Shown one piece after another: positions 27 through 10,289 of a stretch of 57,688 nt of DNA. This DNA is from an uncultured Bacteroides sp. GTDB lineage: Bacteria; Bacteroidota; Bacteroidia; Chitinophagales; Chitinophagaceae. The position numbers and the translations under genes were made by a program. The stretch spans positions 1 to 57,688 of the forward strand of contig CABHOP010000046.1 of assembly GCA_902168085.1 (NCBI GenBank), written 5' to 3'. The notes under the pieces were generated by a model. That model was not told where the DNA came from and made no database searches. It was given only the letters and a program-made list of their open reading frames with translations. The stretch's first letter is position 1. Every line of letters begins with the position of its first letter.

Positions 27-431
27 ATGAGCCAACCGCAGCTTCCCCCTAACCTACAAAACTTGGTACAATCAATTCAAGAACCGGTCACCTCTGATCA
101 GTTGGATATGTATGCGAAGTGGCAAGATGTATCTGACAAAAGTTATAAGTTAAGGACAATTGTAAAGGCTTGGGAAGGTCAGAATGCAGAGGAACGTAGA
201 ATGCGTAAAGGGTTTGCCATAGCCATTATTATTGCTCTTTTTGCCCAAATTATATTTATAAACGTTGCTTTCTGTCTTATTGGCTTCCAAAAAATTGAGG
301 TTTCAGAATGGGTAGCTAATGTATTTGTTGTGTCAGTTTTTACAGAAATAGTTTCAATGACTTTATTAGTCCTAAGATATTTATTCCCGAAAATTGGCAG
401 TGAAGTCATGAATCTCATAAAGGACTTATAA
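27..431 (+). CDS. Small two-TM membrane protein, unknown function
   Basis: A 134-residue protein with a soluble N-terminal part (about 1-60, charged, probably helical) followed by two hydrophobic segments at about 62-87 and 95-120. The second ends in a basic/aromatic stretch and a short tail. There is no signal peptide. It is the first gene of a plus-strand trio: the next gene starts 9 nt after its stop and the third overlaps the second, so the three are probably co-transcribed. Small 2-TM proteins of this shape are common partners of sensor or enzyme genes in anti-phage and stress cassettes. That is inference from layout only; I recognise no named family. The region is clearly more AT-rich than the house-keeping genes further right, consistent with acquisition. 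Confidence 0.7.
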   Translation: MSQPQLPPNLQNLVQSIQEPVTSDQLDMYAKWQDVSDKSYKLRTIVKAWEGQNAEERRMRKGFAIAIIIALFAQIIFINVAFCLIGFQKIEVSEWVANVFVVSVFTEIVSMTLLVLRYLFPKIGSEVMNLIKDL

Positions 432-440
432 ACACCAACT

Positions 441-1262
441 ATGAATCCATTCAACTTGAGAGAAGCAATAAATGCCATATCGGAAGTAATAATCAACAGA
501 CCAAAACCGATACGAGAATTTGATCAAATATATATGCGGGCTGGAGATATGCTTCTTCAGACAGAACATGTCAGCCATTTATTTAAGGATAAGAGCATTG
601 TATTTATTGGCGATGGCGACTCAATTTGTCTATGCCTGGCATATCTTCATAAAATTGGGATCTTAAAGCATGGACCGTCTAAAATTCATATTCTTGACTT
701 TGATGAGAGAATAGTTCTATCAATAAAACACTTCGCAAAGAAGTTTGAAATAGAAAATGTTATTTCGTCCGAGTTGTACAATGTTGCTTCTGCATTACCT
801 AAAGAACACTGGCAAAAATTTGACGGCTTTTATACAAATCCACCATACGGGGCAAGCAATAATGGCAAAAGTGTTGAGTGTTTTTTGAAGCGAGGAATTG
901 AAGCGTGCAAGGGTGACTGTGTTGCATCAGTTGTTATTGCAGATGATGGGGACTCGCAATGGACGAGAAATGTTCTTTTCAACACCCAGACATACATGCT
1001 CAGTAATTTTTACTTCTTAAGTCAACAAATTCCGGCATTTCATTCATATCATCTGGACGATGCACCTGATTTGAAGTCATGCGCATTATCATTTAAACGT
1101 GTTGGTGGCAAACATGAGCCATATTCCAGTATTGCCTTAGAAAAAGAAAGCCTCCAATCCTTTTATGGCACAAACAAGCCTTTGACAATTAAATTTGTAA
1201 AAGACTTAACAGAGGGAGGGACTAAAAATTCACAGGATCATCAATTTATACCATATGAATAA
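441..1262 (+). CDS. BpsA-like (bis-aminopropyl spermidine synthase family) enzyme
   Basis: A 273-residue protein with a Rossmann methyltransferase-like core. Visible motifs are FIGDGD at 55-60 (glycine-rich nucleotide loop), LDFDER at 85-90 (acidic residues after strand 2) and TNPPYG at 132-137 followed by G..VE.FLKRG. This arrangement matches the C-terminal catalytic domain of branched-chain polyamine synthase BpsA (PF01861/COG1568), which transfers aminopropyl groups from decarboxylated SAM. Archaeal and Thermus BpsA have an N-terminal winged-helix domain; here only a short helical N-terminus (1-40) precedes the core. The substrate cannot be read from the sequence: polyamine, protein or nucleic acid are all possible, and the (N/D)PPY-type motif is also used by N-methyltransferases. 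It is sandwiched between a membrane protein and an unknown protein, with an 8-nt overlap to the latter. Confidence 0.65.
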   Translation: MNPFNLREAINAISEVIINRPKPIREFDQIYMRAGDMLLQTEHVSHLFKDKSIVFIGDGDSICLCLAYLHKIGILKHGPSKIHILDFDERIVLSIKHFAKKFEIENVISSELYNVASALPKEHWQKFDGFYTNPPYGASNNGKSVECFLKRGIEACKGDCVASVVIADDGDSQWTRNVLFNTQTYMLSNFYFLSQQIPAFHSYHLDDAPDLKSCALSFKRVGGKHEPYSSIALEKESLQSFYGTNKPLTIKFVKDLTEGGTKNSQDHQFIPYE

Positions 1263-1818
1263 ACAACAATTAACTGATGCGTTCATATTCATGAAGGTTG
1301 GCAATCATGCCGGCGAAACTTTTGAGGATATCTTGAAGCGTAAAAAGCGGGAATATGAAAAAACGGGCATGACATTTTGGGGCTATGGCGGCGTTGCCTG
1401 CCACCCTGTGAAACAAGTTCGCCCTTTTGCGATGTCGCAATTTCAAAGAAATGGCAACATTTATCTATTGATGAACACCGTTAAGTCAAACTTTAATCAG
1501 CCAATTCTTCCAGCTAAACAATACTCTATCGATGGTGTAAACTGGCAAGATATACCGAAAGGTATTAACGTTACAGGATCAAAATATGCCTTAGTATTAG
1601 ACGAAATAAAACCGACGGATTTTGAAATCAACCTTGATGAATTTAGGGTTGGGATTGGACCTAGTAGTGATAAAATAGCTTCGGATTATTTGCAAGGGCG
1701 GACGGATAAGGCGTGTCTTACAATAGATCCATATGCGAACCCTGGCGCAAATACAATTCGTAAAATTGACTTCGCAGCTAAACTTCAAGACCCATATGCT
1801 GTGATACTGAAATATTAG
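1255..1818 (+). CDS. Conserved-looking unknown protein with FWGYGG..CHP motif
   Basis: A 187-residue soluble protein. The most conspicuous segment is FWGYGGVACHP at 41-51, preceded by KVGNHAGE (14-21) and a basic helix (KRKKREYEKTG). The His/Cys and glycine-rich run looks like an active or metal-binding site, but I do not recognise the family. The ATG lies inside the end of the preceding gene (8-nt overlap), which implies translational coupling with the BpsA-like enzyme. Its 3' end overlaps the convergent deoxyribosyltransferase-like gene by 41 nt. Function unknown; the coupling suggests it works on the same substrate or complex as its upstream neighbours. Confidence 0.65.
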   Translation: MNKQQLTDAFIFMKVGNHAGETFEDILKRKKREYEKTGMTFWGYGGVACHPVKQVRPFAMSQFQRNGNIYLLMNTVKSNFNQPILPAKQYSIDGVNWQDIPKGINVTGSKYALVLDEIKPTDFEINLDEFRVGIGPSSDKIASDYLQGRTDKACLTIDPYANPGANTIRKIDFAAKLQDPYAVILKY

Positions 1819-2221
1819 TATCAGCATAATTATTCCAAGTCATATTCTGCATCTGTTCTACAATTGCCAGTGCTTCAGAAATAGAGCTTACAGTATTGAT
1901 ATTAGGGTGTTTTATCATGGTTTGGCTAACGGATGGTCCTCCGCCGATAACGATTATCTTTTTACCAGCTGAGAGTGCGGCTCCCACCTCTACAAGTGCA
2001 AACCTTAAATTGTCTTCTGGTTCGCAGTAGAGTAAGGTAACATCAGCTTTTTGAGGTTCTTCTATGCATCTTATTGCCAAGTCCTGTAAGCATGTGCTTT
2101 GACCAGCCATATACTCATCAATCCAGGTAGAAATGACATTAATACCTTCTGCACGCAATTGAAGCCATTTTGGAGCGTGCTTGGTTTTACTTGCTGTGTA
2201 GATGCTAATTTTGTTGTTCAT
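1778..2221 (-). CDS. Nucleoside 2-deoxyribosyltransferase-like protein
   Basis: 147 residues counting from the ATG whose protein begins MNNKISIYTAS; an upstream in-frame ATG at 2254 is less likely because the beta-strand KISIYTAS is the usual first element of this fold. The order of elements fits the NDT/SLOG Rossmann superfamily: first strand, a W-rich helix, the ADVTLLYCEPEDN strand/loop (59-71), FALVEVGAALSAGKKIIVIGG (74-94) with the candidate catalytic Glu at 78, and a final helix. Classical members cleave the N-glycosidic bond of deoxynucleosides. Relatives occur in phages and as nucleotide-sensing or NAD-processing parts of defence systems. The 3' end overlaps the convergent gene by 41 nt, so the last ~13 residues may be a late extension. 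Confidence 0.7.
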   Translation of the reverse strand: MNNKISIYTASKTKHAPKWLQLRAEGINVISTWIDEYMAGQSTCLQDLAIRCIEEPQKADVTLLYCEPEDNLRFALVEVGAALSAGKKIIVIGGGPSVSQTMIKHPNINTVSSISEALAIVEQMQNMTWNNYADTNISVSQHMGLEV

Positions 2222-2965: not shown

Positions 2966-3349
2966 TTATAGTTTATCGGATAGTTTTTCTAAGAGCTTAT
3001 GCAGTTTCTCATTTTCCTTTTCTAATCTATCAATAGCTGACTGATACATCTTGCGCTCCTCATCGGATAGCGGATGATTGATAGTAACCTGATGCGAACA
3101 TACCCCTTGGCTATGCGTAATTGTATTGATATAAGTCTGATCGTTTGACTGAATCAAATCAACCACATCCATCTTATACAACTGCGCCAGCTTATCCAAC
3201 CTATCAATAGTCAACTTAGTTTCACCTTTCTCCAGCAACGAGTAAGTATTCTGCGATATATCCAAAAAGCCCGCAACATACTCCTGCGTATAGTTATGCA
3301 CCTCCCTTAAAAGCTTTATCTTGTTGGATAAGTTTTGCGTCACATTCAT
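2966..3349 (-). CDS. XRE-family HTH transcriptional regulator
   Basis: 127 residues from the ATG at 3349 (MNVTQNLSNK). The longer reading to 3388 is rejected because it runs through the operator. Residues about 8-62 form a Cro/C1-type helix-turn-helix: KIKLLREVHNYTQEYVAGFLDISQNTYSLLEKG, with the recognition helix in ISQNTYSLLEKGE, then the helix LDKLAQLY. The C-terminal third (about 95-127, ERKMYQSAIDRLEKENEKLHKLLEK) is a leucine-zipper-like coiled coil, probably for dimerisation. Two 15-bp palindromes overlap its likely promoter, indicating autorepression. The linked target is probably the downstream gene at 2472-2936; control of the left-end cassette is possible but not shown. Confidence 0.85.
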   Translation of the reverse strand: MNVTQNLSNKIKLLREVHNYTQEYVAGFLDISQNTYSLLEKGETKLTIDRLDKLAQLYKMDVVDLIQSNDQTYINTITHSQGVCSHQVTINHPLSDEERKMYQSAIDRLEKENEKLHKLLEKLSDKL

Positions 3350-3373
3350 AACCCCAAAATAATAATAAAAACA

Positions 3374-3408
3374 TTGATAAAGTATCAAGCCCCCTGATAA
3401 ACTATCAA
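3374..3408 (-). promoter_or_regulatory. Promoter with two TTGATA-N3-TATCAA operator palindromes
   Basis: Two 15-bp dyads lie upstream of the XRE start: 3374-3388 (TTGATA-AAG-TATCAA, perfect arms) and 3394-3408 (CTGATA-AAC-TATCAA, one mismatch), centres 20 bp apart. On the minus strand the distal dyad contains a TTG -33-like element (3406-3408), and 21 nt later the proximal dyad contains TACTTTAT (3377-3384), close to the Bacteroidota -7 box TAnnTTTG. A dimeric XRE protein bound here would cover both promoter boxes, which points to negative autoregulation. Confidence 0.6.
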
Positions 3409-3470: not shown

Positions 3471-4574
3471 ATGAGAAAAGGTGCACTACTATTGACTTTC
3501 ATCGCCATGTCGCTCGCAATGCAGGCGCAGACACGACTCACAGGCATCAAGAAACTAAAGTTTGAATTCCCCGGCAACCTATACCGCAGCGCCGACACCA
3601 TACATTTTTCCTACACAGGGACCAGGAATAGCGACAACGGCATCATCCAATATGATACCGCAATGCACTACAAAATAGACAGTGCAACCGCAACCTTAGC
3701 TCCATATCGGCGAAATATTCAAACTTTTGACGGTGCTGACAGAATAACATCCAACACTCTCCAATTTTGGAATGGCACATCATGGACAAACGACTCTCGT
3801 ATACTGCTAACATATAATGGAAGCCAAGTAATAGATAGTCTTTATCAAGGCTGGGTTACCGGCGTATGGACAGACGGTCACAAGTGGACCTACTCCTATA
3901 AAGGAACATTAAGAGACAGCATGCACTATCTATACATGAGTGGTATGAGCTGGTTTGAAGTTAAGAGAGCAAAATATACTTACACTTCAACGTCCGAAAT
4001 AGACACTATTTATTATTACAACCTCGATCTAATTAGCGGGTGGATATCTAGCGGCTACGTCCTGCATACCTATTCATCTGGCAAACTGCAATCAATATTG
4101 AATGCTACCGATGAACCCAGTAAACACATATATCAATATAACGGAGCTGGGAATATTGATACATCTATTTTTCAAGCACCACCTTAAACTAACGTCAGAC
4201 GTTATGCCTATACTTACAACGGTGATAATAAAGTCCTAACCTCAATTAGTGATACTTGGTTTGCCGGTGGTTGGACCCCCATGGGGCAAATTGATTCTTT
4301 AGTACGATACTCTTATGAAACCTATCAACCTACTTCAAGCATTAACAGTACCAACGATATAAAAACATCTATTTATCCTAATCCGGCACATAATTATATT
4401 CATGTTAGTACCAATGAACCTATAAAGCTAACGTTACTAGACCTAACTGGAGTTATTCGCAAATCCACTGTATCAAATGTTATTGATTGCTCAGACTTGC
4501 CCAGTGGCATATATAATCTAACCATTGAACAATCTGGTAGCTTGAGAGTTCACACTGTAACCATCATTCACTAA
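3471..4574 (+). pseudogene. T9SS-secreted protein interrupted by one in-frame TAA
   Basis: The first part (3471-4187, 238 residues) begins with a signal peptide (MRKGALLLTFIAMSLAMQAQ) and consists of YD/RHS-like short repeats (YTY.., YSY.., YQYNG). It stops at TAA 4185-4187. The very same reading frame continues without another stop through TNVRRYAYTYNGDNK and WTPMGQIDSLVRYSYETY to a typical type A sorting domain (SIYPNPAHNYIHV ... PSGIYNLTI) ending at 4574. The repeat style is continuous across the stop, so this is one ancestral gene of about 367 residues with a single nonsense change. The truncated product would be exported by Sec but lack the signal for T9SS outer-membrane translocation. 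A sequencing error is the main alternative. Confidence 0.75.
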
Positions 4575-4965: not shown

Positions 4966-6039
4966 TTACCTTGTCTTGCGACGTTTCTTTATTGCAATAC
5001 GAGGACAGCTTTTCGCTATAACAGGTGGTGGCGCAGTAGTCTGTGTAGCTATGTTTTGATTCAAATAAACGTCTTTGGCCTTACCTTCTTTTTGTAGGTC
5101 TTTATAGGTAACTCGCCTATCCATGTTTTCAAAAGCGGCATCAAATTGTTCCTCAAGTGTCAGCCCCTTATACTTACAATTATACCGGTAACAGAACTCA
5201 TCCAAATAACGTTGCAAATATTTGTTGCTAATACCATGGAACTGAGCTTCTATCTTCCTCCACTCATTAATAATACCATTTAAAGTATTTGTATGCGCAT
5301 CACCATCACCATATTCTTTCTTAGAATGATTGAACTGCCTGTATTTTGAAATGTACTTCTTTAAACCCCGATATAGAATATCACAATCACTGTATGCGAT
5401 AGCCCTTTTAGGTATTATCGCCTTAAGAAAAGTTTGTTCTTGTTTTAGTTTAGTATAGTAAGGCATAACTTTGACGTGTAATGACTTCCCACGATTTAAT
5501 ACAGCTGCCACACGGACTTTGTGTGTTAAACCAGCTATGTTCGGATGTTTAGCACGATTAGCAAGGCTCATCATAGTTAAATTTGGACCACAATAAACGT
5601 CATCAAACTCATAGGTTCCGTAACGCTTGCGAACCTTATCATGATCTACGCGCAACATTTCCATGATACGTTGATGTATGTAGTAGATAGTTTCGTATCG
5701 AATGGATCCATCAGTTCTACTTAGCTTTTTCCACAATGCGTGGGCATTAAAAGCACGAGGATTGTTCAGCATTTCATAGATTGCCCTGAACCAATACCTC
5801 AGCGGAGCTTTTGTCATATGGAAAATGGTGCCTGTAGTAACAGTAAATGTTTTCCTGCACTGCCAGTGCTTGCACCTGTACGTTCGTCCATCAGAATAAG
5901 CATACGCATCAGCGTATGTGCAATGAGGGCACCATACATTGCCTTTCCAACGCCGGAAGGTCAAGTACTGCCTGCAAAGGTCTTCATCAAAAAAGAAACT
6001 AAAAATTGTCGCCTCATCCAGGCACTTGAAGATTTTCAT
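4966..6039 (-). CDS. IS1595-family (ISXO2-like) transposase
   Basis: A 357-residue protein. The N-terminal zinc ribbon has C37-x2-C40 and C56-x4-C61 (CPHC...CKHWQC), followed by the FTVTTGTIFHMTKAPL segment typical of the family. The ISXO2-type catalytic domain follows: YEFDDVYCG around 143-151, AYSDCDILYRGL with Asp218, the NHSKKEY turn (237-243), HTNTLNGIINEW (249-260) supplying the last Asn, and YLDEFCYRYN near 285. The spacing fits the DDN-type active site. The first motif reads EFDDVYCGPN rather than the usual E(I/V)DE.Y.GGK, so the enzyme may be divergent or decaying. It moves DNA by cut-and-paste transposition. I could not identify terminal inverted repeats by eye. Confidence 0.85.
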   Translation of the reverse strand: MKIFKCLDEATIFSFFFDEDLCRQYLTFRRWKGNVWCPHCTYADAYAYSDGRTYRCKHWQCRKTFTVTTGTIFHMTKAPLRYWFRAIYEMLNNPRAFNAHALWKKLSRTDGSIRYETIYYIHQRIMEMLRVDHDKVRKRYGTYEFDDVYCGPNLTMMSLANRAKHPNIAGLTHKVRVAAVLNRGKSLHVKVMPYYTKLKQEQTFLKAIIPKRAIAYSDCDILYRGLKKYISKYRQFNHSKKEYGDGDAHTNTLNGIINEWRKIEAQFHGISNKYLQRYLDEFCYRYNCKYKGLTLEEQFDAAFENMDRRVTYKDLQKEGKAKDVYLNQNIATQTTAPPPVIAKSCPRIAIKKRRKTR

Positions 6040-6569: not shown

Positions 6570-7898
6570 TTAACAGCCCTCTTTAGGCTTGTACTGAATG
6601 CAGGGGGATGAGAAAGACATAGGCATAATATTTTGCATAATACCTGCTTCGGGGTGCATCTTCAGGCGCTCTGTAAACGACATCACCTGTACCCTTATTA
6701 CATCCTTCTTAATGTCAGATAAATACTTCCTGGCAATATCATCCGCTTGCTTTTTTCCGTTGATGTATAGCTCATCTTTGCGTTTTTCTACAACAAATCC
6801 ATTTATCTCATCTACTAGTTTAGCATCGCTTAGCCGCCATATCAGCTGTTTTTCTTCTGCAAAATCATCTGCAAGTGGTGGCTGCACTGTTTTGGTAGTG
6901 GTGGCTGTTTCTTCGAGCTTCTCGGTAGTGTTGCCTGCAAACGAGGGCGATACAAATATCACCGTGCAGGTAATGGCAACTACTACAAAAAGTGTAGCTA
7001 CCAGTTTACTGTAGTTGAAAGGATGTTTTTTCATTTCCATAATTCTTTTTATTCGGTGAAACAATTGATATGAAGGACCGGATGCCGCTACTGCTAATGC
7101 AGGGGCTGCCGAAGTGGCCAATGCACGCAATGCTGTAGCATACGATAACGGTTCCGGAATATGTTGCAGTACAAGGTCATCACAGCTATACTCCCTTTCA
7201 CGGCGAACGATGCGGGATATCATCCATACAAAAGGATTGAAAAAGAGAATGGTTTCAGCTATGGTTTGCAGAATGTTCACCAGGTAATCGTGCCTTTTGA
7301 CATGTGCCAGTTCATGCAGGATGATAGCTTCCAGCTCTGCGATGCTCAATTGCGTCATGGCAGTAGCAGGCATTAGTATAACAGGCTTTAGGAAACCCAC
7401 TACCATAGGCACTTGCGCCCTCGTAGATACCAGCAGGTGCACGGCAAATGTTATATACAGCTTATCTTTCAATACATACAATAGGTTGTCTACCTGTTTA
7501 TCAGCAGGTATTACACCAAACTTCCGGAATGATAGCAATTGCCACATGCCTCCTGAAAACCGCAGCAGCATAACCAGCAAACCTGCCAGGTAACATACTG
7601 CCAACCATGGCGACACTAAGTGTATGATTGTTATTAAAACATCACCCCTCCCCGTCATCCACACCACAGGCTGCGATTGCTGTACAGCCCATTGTTGCAG
7701 TTCATGATATTCCAGCCACCAGGTAATGCCAAACCATACCGGTAGTATGATAAGTGCCATTAAACCTAAATGGTATTTTACATTGGCAGCTATATCTGGC
7801 AATAGCTTCAGAATCAACCATAATGCGGCATACACCACTAAACCTTGGCCCAATGCACACATAAGCGCCCACGATAAAGATTGAATCCAGATAGTCAT
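6570..7898 (-). CDS. BlaR1-like M56 family metallopeptidase
   Basis: A 442-residue integral membrane protein. TM segments lie at about 8-31, 43-63, 92-112 and near 290-312 (the VATLFVVVAITCTVIFVS region). Between the third and fourth lies the zinc-protease motif HELAH at 195-199 in the context EAIILHELAHVKRHDYLVN, diagnostic for peptidase family M56. The region after the last TM (about 315-442) is extracytoplasmic and is not a penicillin-binding sensor domain as in BlaR1, so the signal is unlikely to be a beta-lactam in the classical way. It starts 17 nt after blaI-like 7916-8299, so the two form the usual sensor-protease/repressor pair: in BlaR/MecR systems the protease domain leads to inactivation of the partner repressor. 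Confidence 0.9.
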   Translation of the reverse strand: MTIWIQSLSWALMCALGQGLVVYAALWLILKLLPDIAANVKYHLGLMALIILPVWFGITWWLEYHELQQWAVQQSQPVVWMTGRGDVLITIIHLVSPWLAVCYLAGLLVMLLRFSGGMWQLLSFRKFGVIPADKQVDNLLYVLKDKLYITFAVHLLVSTRAQVPMVVGFLKPVILMPATAMTQLSIAELEAIILHELAHVKRHDYLVNILQTIAETILFFNPFVWMISRIVRREREYSCDDLVLQHIPEPLSYATALRALATSAAPALAVAASGPSYQLFHRIKRIMEMKKHPFNYSKLVATLFVVVAITCTVIFVSPSFAGNTTEKLEETATTTKTVQPPLADDFAEEKQLIWRLSDAKLVDEINGFVVEKRKDELYINGKKQADDIARKYLSDIKKDVIRVQVMSFTERLKMHPEAGIMQNIMPMSFSSPCIQYKPKEGC

Positions 7899-8978: not shown

Positions 8979-9245
8979 TTATGCCCACGCATCTTCTGCC
9001 AGTACGATATGCCCATTATTTGCATGCCATTTGCGGGCTACGGAATGGGTGGCGGGCTCTGTACGGATGTATATAGCACCCTGTGTTACCAATGGCTCTG
9101 CTATCTCCAGAATCTCATCACAGTTGCATCCAAAATACAGCGCCAGCGAATCTACCGAAAGCGGTGCCTGTTTTCGTGGGTTGGCTTTCTTCTGTTTGTA
9201 CAGCTGCTTTATTACAGCATACAGCTTTTCACTGTCCGGTGTCAT
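8979..9245 (-). CDS. Small hypothetical protein, possible HTH
   Basis: 88 residues, soluble. The middle (LSVDSLALYFGCNCDEILEIAEPLVTQGAIYIRTE) reads like a helix-turn-helix with a following strand, as in a winged-helix domain. That is a reading of pattern, not a recognised family. Single gene between two terminator-like or regulatory regions; no operon partner. Confidence 0.55.
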   Translation of the reverse strand: MTPDSEKLYAVIKQLYKQKKANPRKQAPLSVDSLALYFGCNCDEILEIAEPLVTQGAIYIRTEPATHSVARKWHANNGHIVLAEDAWA

Positions 9246-9308
9246 AGAAGTTAGGTTTTAGAAACATATAGAGAGTCGACAACCTATATAAAAAAACCTT
9301 GCCACACC

Positions 9309-10289
9309 TTACGGCGCAACATTTTCTTTACTATACTTATTACGGTAATCCAATGGCGATAAGCCGGTTATCTTTTTAAACACTTCACGAAAAGCTTTGT
9401 CGTCGGTATAGCCCACATCACTCATCACTTCAAATACGCTTTTACGCCCTCGCTCTAGGTCTTTTTTCGCTGCTTCTACTTTTACCCTTTGCAGGTACTC
9501 TACCGGGGTGTTTCCCGTGGCTTTTATAAAGCGCCTGTCAAAGTTGCGGCGGCTTACAGCCAGCTCTGTTGCCAGCTTTTCAAATGATATTTTAGCATCC
9601 AGGTGCGCTTCTATATATGCCTGTGCTTTGCTTATCACTTCATCGCCATGCCCTTTCTGGATATGGAAAATAGTAAATGGCGATTGCGTTGTCCGCTCTA
9701 TATCTATCTGGAATATTTTGGAGCAAAATACGGCCGCCGTCCTGTCAAACAGTTTTTCTACAAGGTACAGTACCAGGTTGAGAAACGAATACCCGCCGCC
9801 ATTGGTATAGATGCCATGCTCATCGGTTATCACTTTATCCGGTACCATCCGCACACCGGGAAACATCTGCCGGAACTGCTCTGCGGCATTCCAGTGGGTA
9901 GAACAGCTTTTACCTTCCAGCAATCCCGTAGCCGCCAGCAAAAAAGCCCCTGAGCACATGCTGGCTACTTCTGCCCCACCCTTATATTGCGCCGCTATCC
10001 ACTCTATCAGTTTTTCATTCTTCGCGATAGCTTGTGCATAGTCTTCAAATATGGATGGTATGATGAGCAGGTCTGTTTTACGAATGGTAGCGAGGTCGGC
10101 AGGGTGAATAGTGAAATAGCCGTCATCTACCTGCGATTGTGTAACAAACCCCGCTATACATATATCCAGCAGCGAACGGTTACCCTGTCGTTGCCAGTAA
10201 GCATTGGCACTGCTCAGTATTTCATAGGCCCCGCTGATGCTGTTGAGGTTCACCTGGCAGTCGGGTACGATGATGGTAACATGTTTCAT
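9309..10289 (-). CDS. GlxA-family transcriptional regulator (DJ-1/PfpI + AraC)
   Basis: 326 residues in two domains. Residues about 3-170 form a DJ-1/PfpI-like amidotransferase fold with the nucleophile-elbow sequence ASMCSGAFLLAATGLL. Residues about 225-322 hold the two AraC helix-turn-helix motifs (FEKLATELAVSRRNFDRRF and VFEVMSDVGYTDDKAFREVFKKITG). Family members sense small metabolites through the N-terminal domain and activate nearby genes. It is divergent from the SRPBCC/NTF2 gene pair at 10433-11266, with a 143-bp shared promoter region, so those two genes are its most likely targets. Confidence 0.9.
   Translation of the reverse strand: MKHVTIIVPDCQVNLNSISGAYEILSSANAYWQRQGNRSLLDICIAGFVTQSQVDDGYFTIHPADLATIRKTDLLIIPSIFEDYAQAIAKNEKLIEWIAAQYKGGAEVASMCSGAFLLAATGLLEGKSCSTHWNAAEQFRQMFPGVRMVPDKVITDEHGIYTNGGGYSFLNLVLYLVEKLFDRTAAVFCSKIFQIDIERTTQSPFTIFHIQKGHGDEVISKAQAYIEAHLDAKISFEKLATELAVSRRNFDRRFIKATGNTPVEYLQRVKVEAAKKDLERGRKSVFEVMSDVGYTDDKAFREVFKKITGLSPLDYRNKYSKENVAP

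Follow-up and report, generated by a model that had tools for sequence, protein, structure and literature searches.

We analysed a window of 57,688 nucleotides (nt) whose left end coincides with the start of contig C46 in a 101-contig genome, and we focused on the genes at its left end, which encode a small membrane protein, an enzyme with a BpsA_C domain and a protein of a new family, called FWG. Four genes lie at the locus:

27–431, plus strand: gene 1, two-transmembrane (2-TM) protein of 134 amino acids (aa); an open reading frame (ORF) with hydrophobic segments at about residues 58–93 and 95–120
441–1262, plus strand: gene 2, BpsA_C-domain enzyme (PF01861) of 273 aa, predicted amino-methyltransferase, with G57-D-G-D60 and N133-P-P-Y136-G
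1255–1818, plus strand: gene 3, FWG protein of 187 aa, new family, tentatively predicted YTH/EVE-like (PUA-type) modified-base reader
1778–2221, minus strand: gene 4, nucleoside deoxyribosyltransferase (NDT)-like protein of 147 aa with its ATG at 2221, judged a neighbour outside the cassette

ORF calls confirmed the layout given in a preliminary description of this DNA, with a 9-nt gap between genes 1 and 2, an 8-nt overlap between genes 2 and 3 and a 41-nt convergent overlap between genes 3 and 4. The low guanine-plus-cytosine content noted there was also found (0.37–0.40 in the four genes, compared with 0.46 from position 6570 to the window end), as were the two hydrophobic segments expected of a 2-TM protein in gene 1.

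A profile scan of genome contigs gave 96 FWG relatives, 80 of which were analysed. A search of 72,556 plasmid records found FWG in 5, of which two are near-identical and four were examined; no phage record had it, and viral scans gave 1, 3 and 2 loci. The locus set comprised 84 loci besides the window, 85 in all, and contained 87 FWG genes; the ORFs of these loci were clustered and the family profiles rebuilt. Near-duplicates L071, L089, L090 and L091 were left out of locus counts and trees, the near-identical pairs L067/L072, L042/L046 and L057/L082 are still counted, and the conservation counts below (on 80, 90, 77, 74 and 58 sequences) contain near-duplicates. By record titles, the tree rows come from eight phyla (Pseudomonadota, Bacteroidota, Planctomycetota, Myxococcota, Cyanobacteriota, Actinomycetota, Acidobacteriota and Chloroflexota). 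Among 99 genomes of the host's relatives, FWG was found, besides the window's copy, only as one short weak match inside a 1225-aa frame, and a class-wide search around the Pseudomonas locus L023 gave 1 of 369 genomes, the centre genome itself.

The enzyme gene lies directly upstream of FWG and on the same strand for 84 of the 87 FWG genes, with a spacing of −46 to +32 nt. This count is conditional on FWG, as FWG was the search bait, and the plasmid and order-wide tests are less biased. Used as query against the 72,556 plasmids, the enzyme found the same five records as FWG and no other. In the phage records it gave one partial match (39% of the query, 2e-5, in a 4.3-kb record). The enzyme profile was then applied to 397 genomes of the order to which the genome of L045 (Neorhizobium) belongs and gave five matches. 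The four clear ones all have an FWG-family gene adjoining (the centre genome, the places of L043 and L048, and L107), in a test that takes in the centre genome, chosen for having FWG, and two genomes already among the relatives; the weak fifth (4.6e-7, or 1.9e-11 with the rebuilt profile) has no FWG-family neighbour. Furthermore, the enzyme was found at one place in 17 of 18 FWG genomes searched, the exception being the genome of L049. Three FWG genes lack the enzyme: those of L076, where only 132 bases of contig precede the FWG ORF, of L049 and of the phage contig L008. The preliminary description had suggested testing whether the two genes adjoin more often than by chance, and had named independent occurrence or a routine metabolic family as evidence against a joint function; for genes 2 and 3 the outcome was the opposite, these three genes being the exceptions. 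Correlations of pairwise identity between cassette families (0.82–0.91) had no control and were not used as support. Together, the cassette and its gene pairing are solid observations.

Other parts recur around this pair. Across the 85 loci we found a PIN-like protein in 75, a large M78 peptidase in 75 and a short one in 5, and a second FWG-type protein (FWG2) in 72; other parts were a helix-turn-helix (HTH)-like protein (40 loci), an adenylate-kinase-like protein (31) and the 2-TM protein (6). PIN-like and 2-TM genes never occurred together (0 of 85). An M78 gene is present in 80 of the 85 loci and missing from the window, L012 and L025 (contig edges), L049 and L008. The 2-TM homologues were recognized by clustering in L009 (Puia dinghuensis), L010, L011 and L013 and by hidden Markov model (HMM) in L014. 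In these relatives the protein stands between the short M78 peptidase and the BpsA-like enzyme, in place of the PIN-like protein, and the short M78 gene is directly upstream of the 2-TM gene in all five. With only 26 nt of contig to the left of gene 1, the window contains a truncated cassette, and a peptidase gene is predicted just outside it. Elsewhere in the window's genome M78 gave only a weak match (33% over 63 residues), and the gene is therefore absent or unassembled in the source genome. The 'four-gene cassette' first proposed was not confirmed, since the window cuts the cassette at the contig start and an M78 gene precedes the 2-TM gene in its relatives. Gene 4 was rejected as a member, because it clusters with no ORF of the other cassette loci and the plasmid and phage records that contain its relatives are not those with enzyme or FWG matches. 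Relatives in two phages are annotated as NDT, and the Pfam match of gene 4 to Nuc_deoxyri_tr2 (E 0.079) is below the cut-off.

In the large M78 protein (about 336 aa) HExxH is conserved in 74 of 74 members, and its match to CapP is weak (5.6e-8 and 7e-7 in two members tested). The short form of L011 matches CapP at 7e-33 and is also similar to RmrA of RosmerTA. Members of both forms exceed the Pfam M78 cut-off, one larger member being just below it (20.8 vs 22). Acidic residues of a putative active site are conserved in the PIN-like protein (D 76/77, D 76/77, E 77/77 and D 77/77), which has no Pfam or NCBIfam match. The HTH protein, counted by HMM, was named by its appearance, with no Pfam match in the one member tested; for the kinase, the single member tested proved related to adenylate kinases. 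None of PIN-like, kinase, FWG2 and HTH matched PADLOC 2023 at 0.01, and the window's 2-TM protein gave weak library matches only (best in PADLOC, AbiZ, 0.0011). A branch with support 90 sets the PIN rows apart in the FWG tree; all loci of that tree outside the 2-TM set except L049, L008 and L012 are labelled PIN, including L084, in which no PIN gene was found. In the enzyme tree the PIN rows share a 100/99 branch, all but the row of L085, a mis-chosen row that represents a distant second copy (branch length 9.1). PIN rows are grouped in both trees, which indicates that the PIN/2-TM swap occurred once or a few times; the lineages cross phyla.

Several single loci depart from this layout. L107 (3346–8955) carries a minimal set of enzyme, FWG2-type protein and kinase close to a tyrosine integrase, with no PIN or M78 match, and possibly represents the ancestral unit. 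L054 and L075 each have two enzyme–FWG pairs at a single locus. In Hymenobacter properus (L010) the enzyme gene is in two overlapping frames (9161–9652 and 9526–9981), through decay or sequencing error. An extra shared protein (cluster 47) lies in or beside the cassette in L035 (10596–11306) and L045 (13244–14002).

The enzyme matches PF01861 (BpsA_C) with an E-value of 1.9e-19 (70.3 bits, cut-off 27), and its nearest relatives in the PDB are 5xnc (BpsA) and 2qm3 (a BpsA-like predicted methyltransferase). It resembles BpsA (N4-bis(aminopropyl)spermidine synthase, EC 2.5.1.128) in the C-terminal catalytic domain, over about 190 residues that include the RPxPLxxFDQ segment. It differs in having GDGD instead of GDDD and NPP[WYF]G instead of DPP, in lacking the N-terminal domain (the alignment of the 273-aa enzyme begins at chain residue 131 of 371 and stops short of the C-terminal acidic aminopropyl-carrier cluster) and in its mobile setting with FWG. 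Asp159 and Asp160 of GDDD are essential in BpsA, and Asp225 helps to activate the acceptor, according to a 2026 review (PMC12979288). GDGD was found in all 80 clustered relatives, so that the Asp159 position is Gly and the Asp160 position is kept. These 80 sequences form one cluster, which leaves out four loci where only the HMM detected the enzyme (L034 and L066 among them). NPP[WYF]G stands at the DPP position in 78 of the 80, the other two being a frame-split piece in L010 and a gap in the short ORF of L084. The Asp225 position, located by a residue count along the PDB chain on the assumption of a 20-residue tag, is Asn in 78 of the 80. The name 'BpsA-like' given in the preliminary description thus stands at the domain level, but the polyamine reading attached to it is contradicted by the active-site residues; a polyamine role for the enzyme was rejected on the loss of Asp159 and Asp225.

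NPP[YWF] is the motif IV signature of amino-methyltransferases. The enzyme also matches an adenine DNA methylase family (TIGR02987) at 2.5e-6, far sub-threshold, and the HemK family at E 0.08, far below the cut-off. No system described in PADLOC 2023 was matched (best E 0.012). Judged from the aligned residues, these results indicate that the enzyme is not BpsA and has lost a catalytic residue, and we predict that it transfers a methyl group onto the exocyclic amino group of a nucleobase.

The motif FWGYGG, after which gene 3 had been described, was confirmed in part: all 90 family members examined carry WGYGG, but the leading F varies. FWG matched nothing in Pfam, PADLOC (E up to 1), NCBIfam or PHROGs, and FWG2 is its distant paralogue (hhalign probability 97.9, E 6e-13). 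Tryptophans are conserved in both, W42 (90/90) and W97 (86/90) in FWG and two in FWG2 (58/58); W42 and W97 are candidates for an aromatic cage around the modified base. AlphaFold models of FWG and FWG2 (predicted local distance difference test scores of 91.3 and 90.0) gave match lists in which YTH domains predominate, in the same register. Among the 50 matches listed by Foldseek, 34 were YTH and 3 EVE for FWG, with phage T4 gp6 at rank 1, and 48 were YTH for FWG2, two 4r3h rows being counted as YTHDC1. Among the 50 listed by VIA, FWG had 49 YTH (Mmi1 rows counted) and 1 EVE (THYN1), and FWG2 had 50 YTH, provided that 4r3i and 4r3h are YTHDC1, which we take them to be. YTH structures are very numerous in the PDB, which inflates their counts in structure lists; PF04146 or PF01878 was matched by sequence in 0 of 79 FWG members; a PF04146 search of 39 relatives gave none above the cut-off; and hhalign of the FWG family against EVE and MJECL36 was negative, as were Pfam and PDB sequence searches. 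The gene neighbourhoods add two cases. In L049, two AAA_5 (McrB-like) proteins and McrC (PF10117, 1.5e-49) come after FWG, and in the phage contig L008 FWG itself comes after an N6_N4_Mtase protein. Together, the models weakly suggest that FWG has a fold like those of the YTH/EVE readers of methylated bases.

The setting of the cassette is mobile and defence-like. The plasmid copies lie near conjugation genes, near AbiE and abortive-infection annotations, or near a Tn7-like TniB/TniQ set. At least one of six mobile-gene clusters was found in 25 of 84 loci, the window being left out of this count, and Pfam searches on single members confirmed terminase, integrases, recombinase, TniB and Mu transposase. 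We also scanned 126 of 292 flanking proteins (150–1200 aa, within 2.5 kb, nearest first) and found PADLOC families, among them mREase_II, DrmD, GajB, AbiEii, HEC-07 and PD-T4-6, mostly with one protein each and with no control set. Phage-type neighbours, linked by clusters, are common to the cassettes of L067, L071, L072, L090 and L091 (Rhodobacteraceae and two viral contigs); in L071 a gpA terminase was confirmed by Pfam.

In the window itself, an XRE-type HTH regulator (HTH_3, 1e-10) adjoins the cassette on the minus strand (2966–3388) and was missed by the cassette HTH profile. A secreted-protein gene on the plus strand (3471–4574) looks broken, with an ORF at 3471–4187 followed by one at 4281–4574 that carries Por_Secre_tail (4.9e-10). 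An IS1595-family transposase (PF12762, 3.6e-19) lies at 4966–6039 on the minus strand, about 3 kb to the right of the cassette.

Collectively, the joint function and defence-like setting proposed earlier for the three plus-strand genes are well supported, and a defence-like role of the cassette is likely. We tentatively read the genes at 27–431, 441–1262 and 1255–1818 as the right-hand portion of a defence-like cassette that has spread horizontally and has a writer–reader core, at somewhat less than even confidence. In this reading, the BpsA_C-fold enzyme would put a methyl group on N6 of adenine or N4 of cytosine in DNA, RNA or a nucleotide, and FWG, being YTH/EVE-like, would bind the modified base. 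The second FWG paralogue and the adenylate-kinase-like protein belong to many copies (72/85 and 31/85). Control of the system would be proteolytic, through the M78 zinc peptidase, which the small HTH protein accompanies in 40 of the 85 loci; CapP/CapH and IrrE/DdrO (PprI-DdrO) are precedents. The killing or dormancy part would be exchangeable, a PIN-like nuclease in most lineages and a 2-TM membrane protein in that of the window. If the reader finds the mark misplaced or at an abnormal level, for instance on foreign or phage-altered nucleic acid, the effector may then be released; anti-phage activity is inferred. A bolder model, possible but doubtful, is a bacterial epigenetic immune system in which a polyamine-synthase fold would write an amino-methyl mark, YTH-like FWG and FWG2 would read it, and proteolysis would free an exchangeable nuclease or membrane effector.

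A rather unlikely alternative is that the cassette serves addiction or mobile-element control, with a PIN-like or 2-TM toxin, a peptidase–HTH regulator and an enzyme–FWG pair that neutralizes or gates the toxin, the benefit being maintenance of the element rather than phage defence. The plasmid, prophage and transposon settings, the HTH, M78 and PIN genes on one strand at many loci, and the similarity of the short M78 to RmrA/RosmerTA would all fit. However, the 2-TM loci retain both enzyme and FWG in the absence of PIN, L107 keeps enzyme, FWG2-type protein and kinase with no PIN or M78 match, and we know of no toxin–antitoxin antitoxin like a methyltransferase–reader core.

We consider it clearly unlikely that the cassette is a nucleotide-signal abortive-infection system, in which kinase and enzyme would make a modified adenine nucleotide that FWG proteins sense to switch on the PIN or 2-TM effector. 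The exchangeable effectors of the cyclic-oligonucleotide-based anti-phage signalling system (CBASS) offer a parallel, a tested kinase member is related to adenylate kinases, and the kinase occurs at 31 of the 85 loci as well as in the minimal L107. It was not found in the other 54, the window among them, and a base in a polymer would agree with the YTH resemblance at least equally well. Protein modification is quite improbable. Here a HemK-like methyltransferase would act on Gln, Asn or another amine of FWG or another partner and so set its activity, as the NPPY common to HemK, the weak HemK-family match and the tight enzyme–FWG pairing might suggest. FWG also occurs with McrBC, or with a DNA methylase replacing the enzyme, and the match to adenine DNA methylase, still sub-threshold, is better. 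Branched-polyamine synthesis in an accessory setting, with FWG as a polyamine-linked helper, is hardly credible, because the active-site losses and the absent N-terminal domain stand against the PF01861 match and the solved BpsA-type relatives.

Returning to the writer–reader reading, the combination was described at the outset as unlike known systems, and the core enzyme and FWG indeed match no PADLOC 2023 system. CapP/CapH and RosmerTA (RmrA) share with the cassette the M78 protein with HExxH and an HTH-like protein (40 of 85 loci); the enzyme–FWG core has no PADLOC match to them, and the larger M78 matches CapP weakly. Archaeal YTH-McrB is among the YTH/EVE (PUA superfamily) readers of modified bases (PMC7641849, PMC11037411, PMC8868631). 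FWG and FWG2 resemble these readers in predicted fold, conserved tryptophans and one FWG beside McrB-like and McrC genes, and differ in lacking a sequence match, in low Z scores, in standing alone next to an enzyme gene and in many extra invariant polar residues. McrBC and CoCoNuT type IV restriction (PMC11090510) likewise join a predicted base reader to an effector, as in the L049 arrangement, whereas the main cassette has a writer-like enzyme with PIN or 2-TM and not McrB/McrC.

No earlier description was found in the open-access PMC literature, preprints being outside that scope, and the cassette is apparently undescribed. It would be an immune-type system of several genes, with core enzyme and reader families that have no match among described systems in the libraries searched, and it would show a polyamine-synthase fold turned into another transferase. 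The YTH fold is reported to be rare in prokaryotes (PMC7641849). If FWG is a YTH-like reader, it would be a broad bacterial source of this fold, and the writer–reader idea could be tested with two small proteins. Epigenetic immune reading, if true, would be a stand-alone prokaryotic counterpart of the N6-methyladenosine (m6A) writer–reader pair and would reveal an unrecognized, widespread bacterial YTH-like branch.
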